Source: a bacterium (GTDB taxonomy: Bacteria > Zhuqueibacterota > Zhuqueibacteria > Residuimicrobiales > Residuimicrobiaceae). Taken from it: a stretch of DNA of 64,000 bases. This document shows positions 43,483-63,037 of the stretch, piece by piece. Position 1 is the stretch's first letter, and every line of letters starts with the position of its first letter. The stretch lies in assembly GCA_029554865.1 (NCBI GenBank), contig JAKPUX010000202.1, positions 1 through 64,000 of the forward strand. Direction: 5' to 3'. The translations under genes were made by a program, and so were the position numbers. The notes under the pieces are model-generated. The model was not told the origin of the DNA. It ran no database searches and was given only the letters and a program-made list of their open reading frames with translations.

Positions 43483-44490
43483 TCACGCCGATACGCGTGC
43501 GGCCACGGATTCCCGTTCGATCAGCCGGGTCGGGACGAGGGTGGTGACCGGCTGCACTATTTCATGGTTCAGCACCTTGAAGAGGGTGCGCACTGCGATG
43601 GAACCCATCTGCTCCTTGTAAACGCGGATGGTGGAGAGGGGCGGCGAGATCATCTTGCCCAGCTCGATGTCATCGAAGCCGATGATGGAGATATCGTCAG
43701 GAACGCTGAGGCCGTGGTCAGTGACCGCCTTGTAGCCATAAATGGCATTGATGTCGTTGGCAGCAAAGATGGCGCTCGGGGGTTCGGGCAGGTCGAGGAG
43801 GGCGCTGAGATGGTCATAGCCCTTCTCCAGGCCGCCGCAGCGCACCAGCTCCTCGCAGAGAGGGAGTCGGGCGAATTCGAGGGCTTTGCAATAACCGTCA
43901 AGGCGCTGGCGGAAGCTGAGCCGGTCGAGATCGCCGGAGATAAAACCGATGCGGGTATGGCCATGATCAAGAAGGAACTGGACGGCCTGAAAGGCGCCGT
44001 GTTCGTTGTCGATCAGCACCTGGGAAAAGGTGTTGCTGGTGATCTTGGGGTCGACCAGAACAGTGGCGATCTCGAGTGAAGCGAGCTGGTCGATAAACGC
44101 CTGCTGCAGCACCCCGATGAGAATGAGGCCGTCGACCTGACGCTCACGGATCATCTTGGGAATGGCGGTGGTGTGTCCCTCGGGGAGAAGATGGAGGACG
44201 AGGCTGTGGTTGCTGACGGCGAGTTCGGCCTCGATGCCCTCAAGCACGCGTGAATAAAAAGGATTGAGGGAGAGGGGCAGTTGTTCGCGGCAGAAGATGA
44301 CCCCGACGCTTTCGGTGATTTTTTTCTTGAGGGCCTTGCCGAGGGCGTTGGGATGAAAATCGTGTTCCCTGGCGATGGCGAGGATGCGCTGGCGGGTGGC
44401 CTCGGCGACATCGGGGCGGCCGTTGAGGGCCTTGGAGACGGTGGCCGCCGAGCAGTGGGCGGCCTTGGCGATGTTTTTTATGGTAGTCAT
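43483..44490 (-). CDS. LacI-family transcriptional regulator
   Basis: Sugar-responsive regulator of about 335 residues. Seen: helix-turn-helix at residues 3-25 (TIKNIAKAAHCSAATVSKALNG), hinge helix (NALGKALKKK), then the periplasmic-binding-protein-like sensor domain with VDGLILIGV, FISGDLDRLSFRQRLDGY, AIFAANDINAIYG and ISIIGFDDIELGKMISPPLSTI. The ligand cannot be read from sequence. It probably controls the neighbouring surface-protein gene and perhaps the mannan operon. ATG 44490 follows AGAGGGTG; a GTG directly upstream is also in frame. Palindromic operators upstream point to autoregulation. Confidence 0.93.
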   Translation of the reverse strand: MTTIKNIAKAAHCSAATVSKALNGRPDVAEATRQRILAIAREHDFHPNALGKALKKKITESVGVIFCREQLPLSLNPFYSRVLEGIEAELAVSNHSLVLHLLPEGHTTAIPKMIRERQVDGLILIGVLQQAFIDQLASLEIATVLVDPKITSNTFSQVLIDNEHGAFQAVQFLLDHGHTRIGFISGDLDRLSFRQRLDGYCKALEFARLPLCEELVRCGGLEKGYDHLSALLDLPEPPSAIFAANDINAIYGYKAVTDHGLSVPDDISIIGFDDIELGKMISPPLSTIRVYKEQMGSIAVRTLFKVLNHEIVQPVTTLVPTRLIERESVAARVSA

Positions 44491-44536
44491 CACCCTCTGG
44501 CGAAAGGGGGAAGGGGCGGGAGACGGTGGATTATTT

Positions 44537-44550
44537 CGAAATCGTTTTCG
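44537..44550. promoter_or_regulatory. LacI-type operator O1
   Basis: CGAAATCGTTTTCG is a near-perfect palindrome with the central CG typical of LacI/GalR operators. It lies just downstream of the -10 box of the LacI gene, as expected for autorepression. Confidence 0.75.
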
Positions 44551-44562
44551 TTATCCTAAAAA

Positions 44563-44591
44563 AAAGTAGCACTTTTTTTGCTTTCAGTCAA
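44563..44591 (-). promoter_or_regulatory. Promoter of the LacI gene
   Basis: On the minus strand: -35 TTGACT (44591-44586), exactly 17 bases, then -10 TACTTT (44568-44563) preceded by TGC, an extended -10. The expected start of transcription falls a few bases before operator O1. Confidence 0.65.
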
Positions 44592-44697
44592 GCATTTTTT
44601 CGAAATTATTAAATATTTTCGAAGATTGGGGGCGGGCAGTGAGACCAGAAAGTTTTTTATTGTTGTTAATTATGTTTTTACGATCTTCGCAAGGAAT

Positions 44698-44719
44698 AAC
44701 GATTTCGAAATCGTTTTCA
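44698..44719. promoter_or_regulatory. LacI-type operator O2, within a perfect 18-bp palindrome
   Basis: AACGATTTCGAAATCGTT (44698-44715) is perfectly palindromic and overlaps CGAAATCGTTTTCA (44706-44719), which repeats 13 of 14 bases of O1. The spacing from O1 is 169 bp, close to 16 helical turns, compatible with a repression loop. Confidence 0.7.
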
Positions 44720-44838
44720 GCGGAACGGGGCGCTTCCCTCCCGCTCCATCGAAAATGGCCCATGTTACATCCCGGATGCAGATTAATGCTCGCCAGCAGC
44801 AGGCCGCTGGCGCACCGGGATCCGCCCCGGCAACACGC

Positions 44839-47688
<2,850 letters not shown>

Positions 47689-47994
47689 GAAAGACCTCGC
47701 TGGCGTTAGCAGGAGCGCAGCCGGAAAGAGAGCAGGATTAAGAACCCAAGGTTTTGCCCTCGCAGGCCATCCGAATCACCAAAAGCGAGGATAATCACCA
47801 GGATGAGGGCGCCCTTGACCGTACCCGTAATATAGGAGCGGTTTATGCAAGATTCAAGAGAAAAATCAGCCCATGCTCACCCCGTTAGCAATCGAGGGGA
47901 AAGCAGCACGCCGGAAGCTGCGCCCCGCCTCCCGGCGCGGGAATTAATCGCCGCCCGGTGGCATTATATAGGTGAGTCAATCTCAGGAGGAAAC
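47689..47994. other. Divergent intergenic region of 306 bp
   Basis: Lies between the FAD dehydrogenase (minus) and nitroreductase (plus) genes. TTGACC at 47814-47819 and the AT-rich GCATTATATAGG near 47961-47972 may belong to promoters, but their spacing does not form a clean pair. The upstream open frame from 47845 has no start signal and is not thought to be translated. Confidence 0.4.
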
Positions 47995-48612
47995 ATGGAA
48001 CTTGTCAAGGCCATTGAGCAAAGAAGAACTGTACGCCGATTCTCCAGCGCGCCTGTTGCGGCGGAGAGTCTCAAGGAGTTGGCCCGCCGGGCCGGACTCG
48101 CTCCCAGCATCAACAACAGTCAGCCGTGGAAATTCATCGCCGTCACCCGCGCGGAGGTCATCCGGGAGATGGCCGCCGCCGTCCATCAGCGCGTGAGCCA
48201 GCTCTTCGCCGGGGCGGAGAAGGAGAACATTCTTCGCACGGTTGACCATTTTTCGACCGTCTTCGAGCACGCGCCCGCCGTCCTCTTCGTCGCAGCGCGG
48301 CCCTACCAGGCTATCGCCGATGAAATCGGCAGCGGCGAAACCGGGCATGACGCCCTCAACGCGATGCGCCGTCATCCTGATCTGCAGAGCGTCGGTGCGG
48401 CAGTGCAGAACATCCTGCTCTCTGCCACTGAGTTGGGGCTCGGTGCGTGCTGGCTCTCCGGCCTGATGGTGGCGCGGCCCGAGCTGGAGAAAGTGCTCGG
48501 GCTGGAGCAGCCCTGGGAGCTGGTTACCGCAATAGCCATAGGCACTCCCGAAAGCACGCCCGTTCCCAAACAGCATCCCCCCGTCGAACAGATCTTCACC
48601 CTCATCGACTGA
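47995..48612 (+). CDS. Nitroreductase-family flavoprotein
   Basis: FMN-dependent oxidoreductase of 205 residues. Seen: N-terminal ELVKAIEQRRTVRRFSS, the FMN-binding block RAGLAPSINNSQPWKFIAVT, central SVGAAVQNILLSATELGLGACWLSG and C-terminal AIAIGTPE. The family reduces nitro groups, quinones or enones with NAD(P)H; the physiological substrate here is unknown. ATG 47995 has AGGAGG 4 bases upstream. A strong hairpin follows the stop. Confidence 0.92.
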   Translation: MELVKAIEQRRTVRRFSSAPVAAESLKELARRAGLAPSINNSQPWKFIAVTRAEVIREMAAAVHQRVSQLFAGAEKENILRTVDHFSTVFEHAPAVLFVAARPYQAIADEIGSGETGHDALNAMRRHPDLQSVGAAVQNILLSATELGLGACWLSGLMVARPELEKVLGLEQPWELVTAIAIGTPESTPVPKQHPPVEQIFTLID

Positions 48613-48747: not shown

Positions 48748-49677
48748 ATGGAGAGGATGGCCGATTTCCAGAATATTACGGGCTTGATCTTTAACATCAT
48801 GCGCTTTTCGGTGCATGACGGGCCGGGCATCCGCACCACAGTTTTTGTCAAGGGATGCCCCCTGCAGTGCGCCTGGTGTCACAATCCCGAATCAATTTCA
48901 CCGCAGCCGGAGATGATGCTGCGCACGGACATTTGTCTGATGTGCGGCGCCTGCATTGCCGCCTGTCCGGTGGGGGCGATTGAAAACACCGCAGCCGGGC
49001 TGGTCACTCACCGGGAAAAATGCATCGCCTGCGGAATTTGCGCCCAGGTCTGCCCCGTCGAGGCCCGCGTGCGCGTCGGCCGTGAGATGACTGTATCAGA
49101 GGTGATGCTGGAGATTCTCGCCGACCGCGTCTTTTACGACCAGTCCGGAGGGGGCGTCACTTTCTCCGGCGGCGAGCCAACCCGCCAGCCCGATTTCCTG
49201 CACGCCCTTCTCACCGCCGCCCGGCATGAGGGACTGCATACCATCGTCGACACCTGCGGTTATGCCCCCTGGAGCGTCTTTGAACGCATCGCCCCCCTGA
49301 CCAGCCGATTCCTTTTTGACATCAAGATCGTCGATCCGGAAAAACACCGTCGCTGGACCGGCGTCTCCAATCGCCGCATCCTTGACAATCTGACCCGACT
49401 TGACGCCAGGGGCTGTGCCATCAGCCTGCGCCTGCCCATCATCCCGGGTGTCAACGACAGCCCGGAGGATATCAAGGGGCTGGTCGAGCTACTCCAGCGA
49501 TTGCACCATACCAAGAGGCTGCATCTCCTCCCCTTCCACGGAGGTGGAGCGGAAAAATATCACCGTCTCGGACGGGCTTTCCATCTCGAGCAGGCCGTTC
49601 CGCCCGATCATGCAGCGATCGAAAGAATTGCGCAAGACCTGCGCAACCATATCGAAGAGGTCCACATCGGGGGCTAA
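48748..49677 (+). CDS. Glycyl radical enzyme activase (radical SAM, PflA-like)
   Basis: Activating enzyme of about 309 residues that places the glycyl radical on its partner with S-adenosylmethionine. Seen: the radical-SAM cluster motif CPLQCAWC near residue 38 after FSVHDGPGIRTTVFVKG; an inserted pair of ferredoxin-type clusters (CLMCGACIAACP and CIACGICAQVCP, about residues 66-103); the SAM-binding GGE motif in TFSGGEPTRQ. It is cytoplasmic and oxygen-sensitive. The start may be 48748 or 48757. Its partner gene follows after 47 bases; it would be the HypE counterpart of HypD. Confidence 0.93.
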   Translation: MERMADFQNITGLIFNIMRFSVHDGPGIRTTVFVKGCPLQCAWCHNPESISPQPEMMLRTDICLMCGACIAACPVGAIENTAAGLVTHREKCIACGICAQVCPVEARVRVGREMTVSEVMLEILADRVFYDQSGGGVTFSGGEPTRQPDFLHALLTAARHEGLHTIVDTCGYAPWSVFERIAPLTSRFLFDIKIVDPEKHRRWTGVSNRRILDNLTRLDARGCAISLRLPIIPGVNDSPEDIKGLVELLQRLHHTKRLHLLPFHGGGAEKYHRLGRAFHLEQAVPPDHAAIERIAQDLRNHIEEVHIGG

Positions 49678-49724: not shown

Positions 49725-52085
49725 ATGATGACCGAACGCGTGCGCCTTTTACGCGAGAAAAGCCTGCAAGCCGTTCCCACCCTTTCCACCGAACGCGCCG
49801 AAATTGTCACACGCATCTACCGTCAAGCCGGCCTCCTCTCCGCTCCGATGCTGCGCGCCCGCGTTTTTGCCGCCATCATGCAGGAAAAGGAAATCTGTAT
49901 CAACGACGGCGAGCTCATCGTCGGCGAACGCGGCCCCGCGCCCAAAGCCACCTCCACCTTTCCGGAACTCTGCTGCCACTCCCTCCAGGACCTGGAGATC
50001 CTCGACAGCCGCGAAAAGGTCTTTTTCAGGGTCGATGAGGGGACCCGCCGCCTCTATCGGGAGGAGTTCATTCCCTTCTGGAGGGGGCGAAGCATGCGGG
50101 AGATGATCCTCGCCAGTATGAGTGAGGAGTGGAAGCAGGCTTATGAGGCGGGCATCTTCACCGAGTTCATGGAGCAGCGCGGACCCGGCCACACCGTGCT
50201 CGACGACAAGATCTACAACAAGGGGATGAACGATTTTATCGCTGATATCGAGACCCGGCTGGCTGAGCTCGACTTCGTCAACGATGCCACCGCTTATGAC
50301 CGCGCAGAGGAACTCAAGGCCATGCGTCTTTGCGCGCAATCGATCATCGTTCTGGCCAGGCGCTATGCCGACAAAGCGGCAGCCCTGGCTAAAAGCGAAA
50401 AGAATCCTGCCCGCAAGGCCGAGCTGAAAACCATCGCTGTGATCTGCCGCCGCGTCCCGGCCGAGAAACCGCGCACCCTCCACGAAGCCCTGCAGTATTA
50501 CTGGTTCATCCATCTCGGGGTCATCACCGAGATCAATCCATGGGACGCCTTCAATCCCGGCCGCCTCGACCAGCACCTCTACCCCTTTTATAAAAAGGAG
50601 CTCGATGAGGGCAGTTTGACCCGGGAAGCGGCGCGCGAGCTGCTGCAGTGCTTCTGGGTCAAGTTCAACAATCAGCCGGCCCCACCCAAGGTCGGCGTCA
50701 CAGCCGCCGAGAGCTCGACCTATACAGATTTCGCCAACATCAACAGCGGCGGCCTCAAGCCCGACGGCAGCGATGGGGTCAACGAGCTTTCCTACCTCAT
50801 CCTCGAGGTCATCGATGAGATGCGGCTGGTCCAGCCCAGCTCCAACATCCAGCTCAGCCGCAAAAATCCCGATGCCTTTCTCAAGCACGCCCTCAGGGTG
50901 GTGCGCAAGGGCTGGGGCCAACCCTCGATCTTCAACGCTGAAACTGTAGTCGAGGAGCTGCTGCGCCAGGGCAAGTCCGTGGAGGATGCCCGTCAGGGGG
51001 GCACCTCGGGCTGCGTCGAGACCGGGGCCTTTGGCAAGGAGGCCTATATCCTCACCGGCTATTTCAACATTCCCAAGCTCCTCGAACTGACCCTGCACGA
51101 CGGGTTCGATCCCCGCACCGGGCGCCAGCTCGGGCCGCACAGCGGAGATCCCGCGAAATGGCACAGTTTTGCCGATCTCATGGCCGCCTTCCGGCAGCAG
51201 ATGGCCCACTTTGTCGCGATCAAGCTGGCCGGCAACAACATCATCGAACGCCTCTACGCCCTGCACATGCCGGTGCCCTTTCTCTCCATCCTCATCGACG
51301 ACTGCATCGCCCGGGGGATGGATTACAACGCCGGGGGAGCCCGCTACAACACCAGCTACATCCAGGGGGTCGGCATCGGCACGGTCACCGACAGCCTGGC
51401 GGCCTTGAAGCAGTACGTCTTTGAGCAGAAGCGGCTCGGCATGGCTGAATTCCTCGCCCTGCTGCAGGGGGACTTTGCGGGCGAGGAGGTGAAGCGGATG
51501 TGGCTAGTCAACAAGTGCCCTAAATACGGCAATGATGACGATTTTGCTGACGAACTCATGAGCGAGGTTTTTGAGATCTATTACAGCCTGGTCAACGGCC
51601 GCCCCAATACCAAGGGGGGCGTCTACCGCATCAACATGCTGCCGACCACCTGTCATGTCTATTTCGGTTCGGTCACCGGCGCCATGCCGGACGGGCGCAA
51701 GTCGGGTACGCCCCTCAGCGAGGGGATCTCGCCGGTCCAGGGGGCTGACCGCAAGGGGCCGACGGCGGTGCTGAAATCGGCCGCCAAGATGGATCACGTC
51801 CGCACCGGCGGCACCCTGCTCAACCAAAAGTTCACCCCCTCCCTGCTCAAGGGGGAGGAAGGAATCGACCACCTCAGCCACCTTGTGCGCGGCTATTTCA
51901 CCCTCGGCGGCCATCATATCCAGTTCAATGTGGTGGACGCCGCCACCCTCCGCCACGCCCAGGCTCACCCCGAAGAGCACCGCGATCTCATCGTCCGCGT
52001 CGCCGGCTACAGCGACTATTTCCTCGACCTCAGCAAGGCCCTGCAGGATGAAATCATCGCCCGCACGGAACATCAGGGCTTTTAG
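49725..52085 (+). CDS. hypD: trans-4-hydroxy-L-proline dehydratase (HypD) glycyl radical enzyme
   Basis: Glycyl radical enzyme of 786 residues that removes water from trans-4-hydroxyproline to give pyrroline-5-carboxylate. Seen: thiyl cysteine C430 and E432 in GTSGCVETG, and the radical glycine G761 in RVAGYSDYF. Against the Clostridioides difficile HypD numbering I recall (F152, H160, D278, S334, D339, F340, C434, E436, Y450, T645, G765), the residues here are F148, H156, D274, S330, D335, F336, C430, E432, Y446, T641 and G761, all identical and all shifted by exactly four. That separates it from pyruvate formate-lyase and diol dehydratases. Pyrroline-5-carboxylate reductase (proC), often adjacent, is not in the window. 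Confidence 0.9.
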   Translation: MMTERVRLLREKSLQAVPTLSTERAEIVTRIYRQAGLLSAPMLRARVFAAIMQEKEICINDGELIVGERGPAPKATSTFPELCCHSLQDLEILDSREKVFFRVDEGTRRLYREEFIPFWRGRSMREMILASMSEEWKQAYEAGIFTEFMEQRGPGHTVLDDKIYNKGMNDFIADIETRLAELDFVNDATAYDRAEELKAMRLCAQSIIVLARRYADKAAALAKSEKNPARKAELKTIAVICRRVPAEKPRTLHEALQYYWFIHLGVITEINPWDAFNPGRLDQHLYPFYKKELDEGSLTREAARELLQCFWVKFNNQPAPPKVGVTAAESSTYTDFANINSGGLKPDGSDGVNELSYLILEVIDEMRLVQPSSNIQLSRKNPDAFLKHALRVVRKGWGQPSIFNAETVVEELLRQGKSVEDARQGGTSGCVETGAFGKEAYILTGYFNIPKLLELTLHDGFDPRTGRQLGPHSGDPAKWHSFADLMAAFRQQMAHFVAIKLAGNNIIERLYALHMPVPFLSILIDDCIARGMDYNAGGARYNTSYIQGVGIGTVTDSLAALKQYVFEQKRLGMAEFLALLQGDFAGEEVKRMWLVNKCPKYGNDDDFADELMSEVFEIYYSLVNGRPNTKGGVYRINMLPTTCHVYFGSVTGAMPDGRKSGTPLSEGISPVQGADRKGPTAVLKSAAKMDHVRTGGTLLNQKFTPSLLKGEEGIDHLSHLVRGYFTLGGHHIQFNVVDAATLRHAQAHPEEHRDLIVRVAGYSDYFLDLSKALQDEIIARTEHQGF

Positions 52086-59903: not shown

Positions 59904-61133
59904 TCAGCGGTAGAGCAGGTATTTCTGCCGCAGGGGTTCGAACTGCTGCAGGCCGTTCTGCCAGGAGGCGATGATCTCCTCCGCGCCGGCGCCGGCGCAG
60001 ATCTGTTTCCAGACCCGATCGGTCCCCATCGCCTTGTTGAACATGTCGATTCGGGAGGTGTCGTAGATGTTCCGCTCCGGGTAGAGCTTTTGCAGGGCGC
60101 AAAGGATGTGAATCTGTACCGCCACCGGCTGGAAGCGAACGGGATCGAGAATATGGATCTGCACCCCCTGCAGCTTGACCCCCTTGAAAGTACCATAAAA
60201 GGGGGTGTAATGAAGCGGACGAAAAAAGACGCCGGGGAGGTTCCGGCCATTAAGCTCCCCCGCCAGTTCCTCGGCGGTGATCCAGGGGGCGCCGGCATAC
60301 TCAAAGGGCCCCGGCATGCCGACCCCGACATCGACCTGGTGCAGCTCGCCGATCGAGCCCACCGCCGCGCAGTGGCGGACTGACTGGGCCTGCGGGATGT
60401 GGGGCGAAGTCGGTACCCACATCAGCCCGGTCTCCTCGAAAGCCATCCCCCGCCGCCAGCCCTCCATGGCCACCACACTCAGATCGCAATGGATGCCGAA
60501 TTCTTCATTGAACAGCCGCGCCAGTTCGCCCGCAGTCAGGCCGTAAACGTAGGGGATCGGATAGAGGCCGATGCCGCTGCGGAAGCGCGGATCGAGCACC
60601 GGCCCCTCGACCAGCATACCCCCGAGGGGATCGGGGCGGTCGAGCACGACAAAGGGGATCCCGTTCTCCTTGGCCGCCTCCATGCCGTGTGCCATGGTGT
60701 AAATATAGGTGTAAGGGCGTGAGCCGATGTCCTGGATATCGTAGAGGAGCACATCCACACCCTCCAGCATCTCGGGGGTGGGCTTGTGGTTGCGTCCATA
60801 AAGGCTGAAGACCCTTATTCCGCTTCTGGCATCGACATATCCCTCAACCGCTGCACCGGCCTCGGCATCCCCGCGTACACCGTGCTCGGGGCCGAAGAGG
60901 GCGACGAGCTGGATGCCGGGGAGCCGGCGCAGGGCATCGATGGTCGACTCATGGCCGGAGGTCAGGCCGGTGGCGTTGGTGATCAGGCCGAGCCGTTTGC
61001 CCTGGATGAGGGGCGGCGGATCGCTCACCAGCACATCCACGCCCAGCTTCACCGGCTTGGAGGCCGGCGTCCCGGCCCCACAGGCCGCGGTCAGAAGCAG
61101 CAAAGTGCAGCAGCAGACGATCAGCTCTTTCAT
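59904..61133 (-). CDS. namZ: NamZ-type exo-beta-N-acetylmuramidase (DUF1343, GH171) lipoprotein
   Basis: Peptidoglycan-recycling enzyme of 409 residues that releases terminal N-acetylmuramate. Seen: a lipoprotein leader with lipobox LTAAC; an N-terminal Rossmann-like domain with KLGVDVL, GLITNATGLTSG and the hallmark FGPEHGVRGD; LLYDIQDIGSRPYTYIYTM; VVLDRPDPLGGMLVEGP; and a C-terminal domain with WVPTSPHIP and FYGTFKGVKLQGVQI. The closest known relative is the Bacillus subtilis NamZ. It starts 7 bases after an AmpG-like transporter gene, which would carry the product into the cytoplasm. Confidence 0.9.
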   Translation of the reverse strand: MKELIVCCCTLLLLTAACGAGTPASKPVKLGVDVLVSDPPPLIQGKRLGLITNATGLTSGHESTIDALRRLPGIQLVALFGPEHGVRGDAEAGAAVEGYVDARSGIRVFSLYGRNHKPTPEMLEGVDVLLYDIQDIGSRPYTYIYTMAHGMEAAKENGIPFVVLDRPDPLGGMLVEGPVLDPRFRSGIGLYPIPYVYGLTAGELARLFNEEFGIHCDLSVVAMEGWRRGMAFEETGLMWVPTSPHIPQAQSVRHCAAVGSIGELHQVDVGVGMPGPFEYAGAPWITAEELAGELNGRNLPGVFFRPLHYTPFYGTFKGVKLQGVQIHILDPVRFQPVAVQIHILCALQKLYPERNIYDTSRIDMFNKAMGTDRVWKQICAGAGAEEIIASWQNGLQQFEPLRQKYLLYR

Positions 61134-61140
61134 TACTTCC

Positions 61141-63012
61141 TCACTTTTTTTTACCGAATCCCTGCTCGAGCGGGATGAAATAGGCGGCGATGAAGGAGGG
61201 TATGGTCGCCAGCACCACCCAGATGAAGAAGTGGCGATAGCCGATGATCTCCTGCAGCCAGCCGCTGAACATGCCCGGCACCATCATGCCCAGCGCCATC
61301 AGTCCGGTGCAGATCGCGTAATGGGCGGTTTTGTGCTCGCCCTCGCCGGCGACGTAGATCATGTAGAGCATATAGGCGGTGAAACCGAATCCGTAACCGA
61401 ACTGCTCGAGGGCGACAAACAAGCTTACCACCCAGAGGTTATCCGGCTGGGCCTGGGAGAGGTAAATGAAGGCCAGATCGGGCAGATGGATAATGAAGAG
61501 CATGGGAAAAAGCCAGAACTTGAGTCCGCGCCTCGGCACGACAAAACCGCCTAGCAGTCCGCCAATGGTGAGGGCGATGATGCCGATAGTGCCGTAGACC
61601 AGCCCCACCTCACCGGTGGTCATGCCCAGTCCCCCAAGTTCACGGCTGTCGAGCATGAAGGGATGGATGAGCTTGACCAGCTGCGCCTCGCCGAAGCGGT
61701 AGAGGAGCAGGAAGGCGAGGATGGCGCCGATGTGCTTGCGCCTGAAAAAGGAGACGAAGGTGTTGAAGAACTCCCTGAGAAAGTTGCGTGACTGCACCCC
61801 GACGTCGCTGGCCGGCCTGGGCAGGGCGAAGCCGTGATAGAAGAAAAAGATGAGAAAGAGGATGCCGAGGACGATAAAGGTGACCGACCAGGAGAGGGGG
61901 ATGTTGCCGGCGCGGGCCACATAGCTGCCTGTGGCCTCACTTTGCAGCTTGGGATCGAGTTGGATGAGGGCGATGGCCGGCTTGTTCCAGTTGGATTCCG
62001 TGAAGACCAGGCGGCTCCCCTCGACGAGATTGATCGATTTGTCGCCCGCATCGCGACTGAAATTGACCACCACCTCCTTGCCGGGTTCGGGCGGCTGTGA
62101 GAGGCGGAAATAGACGGCGCCGACATTGCCCGCGCGGGCCTCGCCCAGGGCGGCCAACTCGCGCTCTTCGCCGAAATGGCGGCGGAGACAATCCTCCAGC
62201 GGCCGGGCAACGCTGCGGGACCACCAGGAGGGTCCCCCCTCCTCCTTCTTGAGCGCTGTGCTCTCGGCGGGATAAAAGCCGTGCTCAAGGTTCCAGGCAT
62301 GGGTGAAACGGAAGAGGGAATCGATCCTGGCCTTGGGCTGCAACTCGCTGCTGATGATCAGCCGTTCCGGCGCGCAGATCATTCGCAGACCACCGCCCGG
62401 CGTGGCGGCCGCCAGGGAGTCGGGATGAAGCATCTGCACGGCCGCCGCTTGCGGTCCGGCCTGCACCGGCAAAGTCACCGGCGAGAGCCCGGAATGGCCC
62501 TCGATGTAGCCGGCGAGGATGATAAGCAGTCCCTGCCCCGTGATCATCGCAAAACGGTAAAAGGTGCTGCGGATGCCGACAAACCAGGCCTGCTGGTCAT
62601 CCGAAAGGCCGAGCATATAGAAGCCGTCGGCTGCAATGTCATGGGTTGCGGAGGCGAAGGCGAGCACCCAGAGCACAGCGAGGGTATAGAAGAGATAATT
62701 GGGCAGGGGGATGGCCATGGCGATCGCCAGAAAACCGATGCCGATGAGCAGCTGCATGGCGATGATCCAGAAACGCTTGGTCTTGAGGATATCGACCACC
62801 GGGCTCCAGAGGGGCTTGATCACCCAGGGGAGGTAAAGCCAGCTGGTGTAGAGGGCGATGTCGGTATTGGAGAGGCCCAGCCGCTTGAACATGATCACCG
62901 ATACCGTCATGATGACCACATAAGGGATGCCTTCGGCGAAATAGAGGGAAGGAATCCAGAACCAGGGGCTGCGGGAGGCGGCGCCTCCCTCCTTCTTGCT
63001 TTTTTCCTTCAT
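61141..63012 (-). CDS. AmpG-like MFS transporter with a large periplasmic insertion
   Basis: Transporter of about 623 residues, longer than AmpG (about 490). Seen: six N-terminal helices with SLYFAEGIPYVVIMTVSVIMFKRLGLS, LPWVIKPLWSPVVDI and the AmpG-like ATHDIAADGFYMLGL; then a non-membrane stretch of about 200 residues (roughly 185-385) with beta character; then six C-terminal helices including YRFGEAQLVKLIHPFML and FGYGFGFTAYMLYM. ATG 63012 is preferred; a GTG at 63024 is also in frame. It lies just before namZ in an operon. Cargo: N-acetylmuramate or muropeptides (inference). Confidence 0.88.
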   Translation of the reverse strand: MKEKSKKEGGAASRSPWFWIPSLYFAEGIPYVVIMTVSVIMFKRLGLSNTDIALYTSWLYLPWVIKPLWSPVVDILKTKRFWIIAMQLLIGIGFLAIAMAIPLPNYLFYTLAVLWVLAFASATHDIAADGFYMLGLSDDQQAWFVGIRSTFYRFAMITGQGLLIILAGYIEGHSGLSPVTLPVQAGPQAAAVQMLHPDSLAAATPGGGLRMICAPERLIISSELQPKARIDSLFRFTHAWNLEHGFYPAESTALKKEEGGPSWWSRSVARPLEDCLRRHFGEERELAALGEARAGNVGAVYFRLSQPPEPGKEVVVNFSRDAGDKSINLVEGSRLVFTESNWNKPAIALIQLDPKLQSEATGSYVARAGNIPLSWSVTFIVLGILFLIFFFYHGFALPRPASDVGVQSRNFLREFFNTFVSFFRRKHIGAILAFLLLYRFGEAQLVKLIHPFMLDSRELGGLGMTTGEVGLVYGTIGIIALTIGGLLGGFVVPRRGLKFWLFPMLFIIHLPDLAFIYLSQAQPDNLWVVSLFVALEQFGYGFGFTAYMLYMIYVAGEGEHKTAHYAICTGLMALGMMVPGMFSGWLQEIIGYRHFFIWVVLATIPSFIAAYFIPLEQGFGKKK

Positions 63013-63037
63013 GCGTGCACTCACTTTCGTGGATATG

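Follow-up and report, generated by a model that had tools for sequence, protein, structure and literature searches.

The hypD locus

The window, the whole 64-kb stretch of DNA analyzed here, is part of contig C128 of a 4.30-Mb bacterial assembly (genome G000). It carries hypD at 49725..52085 (+), a frame for 786 aa with no internal stop that is assigned by the family model NF043068, Pfam domains, the match to 6vxc, clade membership and an AlphaFold2 model. The gene for its activase, a radical-SAM glycyl radical enzyme (GRE) activating protein of 309 residues, lies 47 bp upstream (48748..49677, +). The activase contains the SAM-cluster motif CPLQCAWC (residues 37–44) and two ferredoxin-type motifs (residues 63–73 and 92–102). 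Its top NCBIfam model is NF043069 (T4HPD_activ_SAM), with 363.8 bits against a curated cut-off of 425, and it passes the general GRE-activase model TIGR02494 (349.6 vs 174.35). The activase adjoining hypD in G003, a member of the same family, also reaches only 369.5 bits on NF043069, so this model seems to undershoot the lineage of the window. Being below NF043069, the product of 48748–49677 is classed just as a GRE activase (TIGR02494) paired with HypD.

A convergent gene for a UDP-sugar dehydrogenase follows hypD in the window genome and in the related genomes G002 and G005, and this shared order argues against a binning error. A promoter and terminator scan found sites no more often than in shuffled sequence.

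Upstream, at 44839–48612, the genes for a 949-aa oxidoreductase, which fuses FAD-oxidase, Fe-S and CCG domains, and for a 255-aa flavoprotein of the nitroreductase family are divergent; elsewhere, neither is conserved beside hypD. The nitroreductase (47845–48612) was rejected both as a component of the hypD unit and as a reductase for P5C, since the 97 other loci compared have no homologue of it near hypD. The divergent FAD/Fe-S oxidoreductase and the LacI-type regulator of the 43483–47688 region were likewise dismissed as pathway parts, with no homologue and one weak match, respectively, among 97 hypD loci. Further along the window (59904–63024, –), a NamZ exo-beta-N-acetylmuramidase adjoins a large AmpG-like transporter of the MFS that carries an inserted segment, possibly a muropeptide scavenging pair.

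Identity of the glycyl radical enzyme

HypD is an oxygen-sensitive enzyme that removes water from hydroxyproline, a modified amino acid of collagen. Over residues 3–784 the window protein scores 1321.8 bits on the HypD equivalog model NF043068, whose cut-off is 1100, a margin of 222 bits; the other GRE equivalog models each score it far under their own cut-offs. Its Pfam domains are PFL-like and Gly_radical (PF01228). The top solved-structure sequence is C. difficile HypD (CdHypD, 6vxc) at 1075 bits, followed by glycerol dehydratase at 561, and the alignment to 6vxc, with its 20-residue tag removed, gives 440 identical residues in 780 (56.4%). In a PF01228 search of the whole genome the hypD product is the sole match, a result that is uninformative on class III ribonucleotide reductase since PF01228 also gave no match in some control genomes that presumably carry that enzyme.

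The assignment of the window protein as trans-4-hydroxyproline dehydratase, the function that the initial annotation had thought likely, has strong support: the match to the curated family model, the identical active-site residues, the position in the tree, the nearest solved structure and the neighboring activase gene all agree with it. By homology with CdHypD, the gene is almost certainly an ordinary working copy of this known oxygen-sensitive enzyme.

Active-site residues

Fifteen CdHypD residues were chosen from the structural study (PMC7077986), each either in contact with the substrate, supporting it, or bearing the radical. All 15 are identical in the window protein in a pairwise alignment, each at an offset of –4, which bears out and extends the eleven identities claimed earlier from C430, E432, D274, H156, G761 and others. 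CdHypD F152, R156, H160, W277 and D278 correspond to F148, R152, H156, W273 and D274; K326, S334, D339, F340 and C434 to K322, S330, D335, F336 and C430; and V435, E436, Y450, T645 and G765 to V431, E432, Y446, T641 and G761. The offset is constant because the alignment is ungapped beyond a gap of one residue near position 35. This constancy adds no evidence past homology and is expected of a nearly gap-free, 56%-identical homologue. What discriminates, at the level of sequence comparison, is the retention of HypD-specific residues and the placement in the HypD clade.

The catalytic Cys430 and Glu432 (CdHypD C434 and E436) lie in the Cys loop G-C-V-E (residues 429–432; 51009..51020, +), the CXE motif of GRE eliminases, and the radical would reside on Gly761 (CdHypD G765) in the glycyl radical loop IVRVAGYSDYF (PF01228; residues 756–766; 51990..52022, +). 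The pair Trp273-Asp274 (50541..50546, +) includes the equivalent of D278, the HypD-specific catalytic acid/base. The stretch from Ser330 to Phe336 (50712..50732, +) supplies the HypD-specific substrate pocket through Ser330, Asp335 and Phe336 (CdHypD S334, D339 and F340). Asp278 and Asp339 are strictly conserved in HypD but not in other GRE eliminases, and Ser334 stands where other eliminases have Phe (PMC7077986).

In an alignment of 109 GREs, the HypD residue set is present in all 101 sequences of the HypD clade (six with V435I) and missing from glycerol dehydratase and seven other GREs. In the 15 columns from F152 to G765, glycerol dehydratase 1r8w reads N N H - H K F M Y C V E F S G. Among 37 aligned close HypDs the active-site residues are invariant, C430 and E432 included, and Val431 is nearly so.

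Phylogeny, fold and distribution

The phylogeny proposed as a check on the initial annotation places the window protein inside the HypD clade. In the FastTree analysis of the 109 GREs it falls with CdHypD within one 101-member clade, outside which lie glycerol dehydratase and the seven other GREs. Node support is 0.77 for HypD as a whole, 0.98 for the inner node holding the window protein and CdHypD, and 1.0 for HypD plus glycerol dehydratase. The HypDs of the window's phylum do not form one clade, which is consistent with several transfers.

The AlphaFold2 model has a mean pLDDT of 80, and its closest structure is 6vxc (TM 0.94, 2.4 Å). The global fold agrees; the pocket loops (149–157, 323–334, 431–444 and 641–672) have pLDDT below 50, probably because the 37-row alignment is shallow.

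The best 80 homologues span KSB1, Calditrichota, Chloroflexi, Planctomycetota, Acidobacteriota, Deltaproteobacteria and others; the nearest named one, at 77% identity, is from candidate division KSB1 bacterium KLAP87 (L002). HypD has already been described in Firmicutes and Bacteroides (PMC11574389), and KSB1, for which Zhuqueibacterota is a newer name, is described as mostly facultative anaerobes (PMC11683472). The window genome itself is probably KSB1-like. The earlier remark that this HypD lies outside the clostridia thus holds for its host; the implication that this is unusual does not, as HypD beyond the clostridia is widespread, not rare.

hypD loci in relatives

A comparison of 97 hypD loci, some of them duplicates or cut by contig ends, yields counts that are lower bounds. 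ProC lies near hypD in at least two (L049 and L053), a P5C dehydrogenase over cut-off in at least three (L048, L069 and L075), and proline-racemase-family genes in at least five. In L069 the order is hypD, P5C dehydrogenase and Xaa-Pro peptidase, with a proline racemase further along; in L048 a PrdR-like sigma-54 regulator precedes activase, hypD and P5C dehydrogenase; and in G003, from the window's own family, a GntR-type regulator, activase and hypD are followed by a POT oligopeptide transporter. Such gene neighborhoods speak for a role of the window's HypD group in the use of hydroxyproline and peptides.

All six family genomes searched contain hypD. No activase adjoins it in G001 (L114) or G004 (L116), so the activase of these two must be unlinked; in both, hypD is downstream of a CRP/FNR-like regulator gene. 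In G024 (C143:1681–4040), hypD is split into two pieces that overlap, and one frame contains two in-frame TGA codons, which points to a pseudogene, a frameshift or an assembly error.

Fate of P5C in the window genome

The absence of proC near hypD, noted earlier, holds up and applies to the assembled genome as a whole. A search for ProC (TIGR00112, E ≤ 0.001) gives no match in the window genome, an assembly of 408 contigs and 94% completeness in which a missing gene may be a gap; 14 of 14 control genomes match. ProC was also not found in family members G001, G002 and G005 (96, 95 and 90% complete), while G004 has a true ProC (256 bits). As independent assembly gaps, these absences have a joint chance of the order of 1e-5, estimated from the completeness values. 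A weak ProC-like paralogue (~100 bits) in some relatives was rejected as ProC, being sub-cut-off, present in ProC-positive genomes as well and missing from the window genome.

Neither ProA nor ornithine cyclodeaminase was found in the window genome. Its two weak ProA matches are other aldehyde dehydrogenases: that on C378 is a microcompartment-type acylating enzyme, and that on C153 is unassigned. The lack of all three, ProC, ProA and ornithine cyclodeaminase, makes it probable that the cell is auxotrophic for proline and lives on peptides.

A genome-wide search, proposed with the initial annotation, returned a P5C dehydrogenase over cut-off at C78:1337–2884 (TIGR01237, 728.8–729.1 bits vs 659.65). 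A proline dehydrogenase is present on C89. Both are unlinked to hypD, and the pathway they would form with it is put together by inference. The annotation had left two fates for P5C, reduction by an unlinked enzyme or oxidation to glutamate. Oxidation is favored over an unlinked ProC because ProC is missing from the assembly and most family members and P5C dehydrogenase is present. The window genome thus has the P5C dehydrogenase of a hydroxyproline/proline-to-glutamate oxidation route and lacks the ProC of the clostridial hypD–proC Stickland module.

In the proposed sequence of events, the radical-SAM activase would place a radical on Gly761, which would move to Cys430; this cysteine would then remove a hydrogen from the C5 position of hydroxyproline. 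With the help of Asp274, Glu432 and His156 the 4-hydroxyl would leave as water, and the product would be (S)-pyrroline-5-carboxylate (P5C). The RocA-type L-glutamate gamma-semialdehyde dehydrogenase on C78, unlinked to hypD, would most likely oxidize P5C to glutamate, and flux from proline via the unlinked proline dehydrogenase may merge at P5C oxidation. Reduction to proline is improbable, as no ProC was found. Taken as a whole, it is very probable that HypD makes P5C and that this is oxidized to glutamate in a likely proline auxotroph.

Two other loci of this genome touch on its metabolism. L130 (C6), at locus positions 1438–2967, encodes an L-piperidine-6-carboxylate dehydrogenase (804.7 vs 730), a lysine-catabolism enzyme that fits an amino-acid-consuming lifestyle. 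L125 (C378:58000–68000), unlinked to hypD, is a bacterial microcompartment locus that encodes two shell proteins with BMC domains, a protein similar to RnfC/PduS, an acylating aldehyde dehydrogenase (672 bits on NF011927, cut-off 403) and a protein resembling cobalamin adenosyltransferase; it suggests a B12-dependent diol or ethanolamine pathway.

Alternative explanations

HypD might be real and its P5C nevertheless be reduced to proline, by a ProC lost in assembly gaps or by an unrecognized reductase such as the nitroreductase at 47845–48612. The incomplete, 408-contig assembly leaves room for such a loss, the route is known in C. difficile and some clostridia (PMC9044972), and family member G004 does carry a true ProC. 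The nitroreductase gene, moreover, lies upstream on the same strand, with 135 bp between its end and the activase gene. However, three further family members of 90–96% completeness also lack ProC, no such nitroreductase occurs near hypD in the 97 other loci, and a P5C dehydrogenase is at hand. We know of no P5C reductase of the nitroreductase fold, and reduction is considered unlikely.

Doubts about the enzyme itself carry less weight. That the protein is another GRE, whether an N-methyl-cis-4-hydroxyproline dehydratase, the C-N cleaving HplG or a diol dehydratase, would agree with a shared fold (TM 0.90–0.92 to the window model) and with GREs in the PDB that act on hydroxyproline derivatives (8id1, 8iof and 7vua). 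The sequence scores to these three are 475, 451 and 411 bits, whereas HypD reaches 1075; the window protein also exceeds the cut-off of the HypD equivalog model widely and has the HypD-specific D/S/D/F pocket residues intact, making this a very improbable reading. Hardest of all to credit is a silent or decaying hypD with no physiological role: the gene does not belong to a catabolic operon, it is missing from related lineages and the G024 copy is degraded or mis-assembled, but here the frame is intact with all catalytic residues retained, hypD recurs in every family genome searched, and its position by the UDP-sugar dehydrogenase gene is identical in the window genome, G002 and G005. Oxidation of HypD-derived P5C to glutamate is therefore kept as the preferred reading.

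HypD and ProC across the phylum

A survey of 61 phylum genomes, each at least 85% complete, finds HypD in 30. ProC is absent from 18 of these 30 and from 2 of the 31 genomes without HypD (Fisher p 7e-6, ignoring relatedness), an association spotted during analysis and not predicted beforehand. Across 18 families, the HypD fraction correlates with the ProC fraction at a Spearman coefficient of –0.69 (permutation p 0.00075); inside families the association is not significant (p 0.26), with little power. ProC is absent in 18 of the 24 genomes whose HypD shares 60% identity or more with the window protein and in none of the six whose HypD is 54–57% identical.

The P5C dehydrogenase of the C78 type is present in 6/6 family-f1 genomes. 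Family f8, G018 and G034, which are ProC-less HypD genomes, have no P5C dehydrogenase over threshold, so oxidation by this enzyme is not a general rule. In KSB1/Zhuqueibacterota HypD may be tied to ProC loss, with proline auxotrophs using hydroxyproline as a glutamate and carbon source, the reverse of clostridial use; this generalization could equally well hold or fail. HypD is common in this uncultured environmental phylum and usually occurs there without ProC, pointing to a second purpose of using hydroxyproline anaerobically, namely its oxidation to glutamate by peptide-dependent bacteria.

ProA is over cut-off in 17 of 60 relatives, and most genomes of the class have no recognizable ProA even when ProC is present.

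Comparison with known systems

The B12-independent glycerol dehydratase 1r8w shares with the window HypD the GRE eliminase fold, the CXE motif and the His160 equivalent, and lacks the HypD-specific F152, R156, W277, D278, S334, D339, F340, Y450 and T645. The hydroxyproline C-N lyase HplG (7vua) and the N-methyl-cis-4-hydroxyproline dehydratases 8id1 and 8iof are also GREs acting on hydroxyproline or its derivatives, yet they match the window protein with just 411–475 bits.

Further parallels come from the environmental anaerobes of L048, L069 and L075, whose HypDs are 64–66% identical to that of the window. The activase adjoins hypD in L048 and L075. P5C dehydrogenase lies beside hypD in all three, whereas it is unlinked in the window genome; the Xaa-Pro peptidase and proline racemase of L069 and the PrdR-like sigma-54 regulator of L048 are likewise near hypD there and unlinked here.

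HypD has mainly been discussed as a gut or clostridial enzyme feeding proline-based Stickland fermentation. The enzyme described here adds one member to a known family; what is added beyond that is the answer on ProC and the phylum-level association. It resembles C. difficile HypD (6vxc/6vxe; PMC7077986) in its active site (15/15), CXE motif, glycyl radical loop and radical-SAM activase. A hypD-adjacent proC is a feature of a subset of organisms, largely clostridia (PMC9044972). In C. difficile, proC adjoins hypD and P5C is converted to proline for Stickland fermentation, whereas in the window genome no ProC is detected and a P5C dehydrogenase is present.
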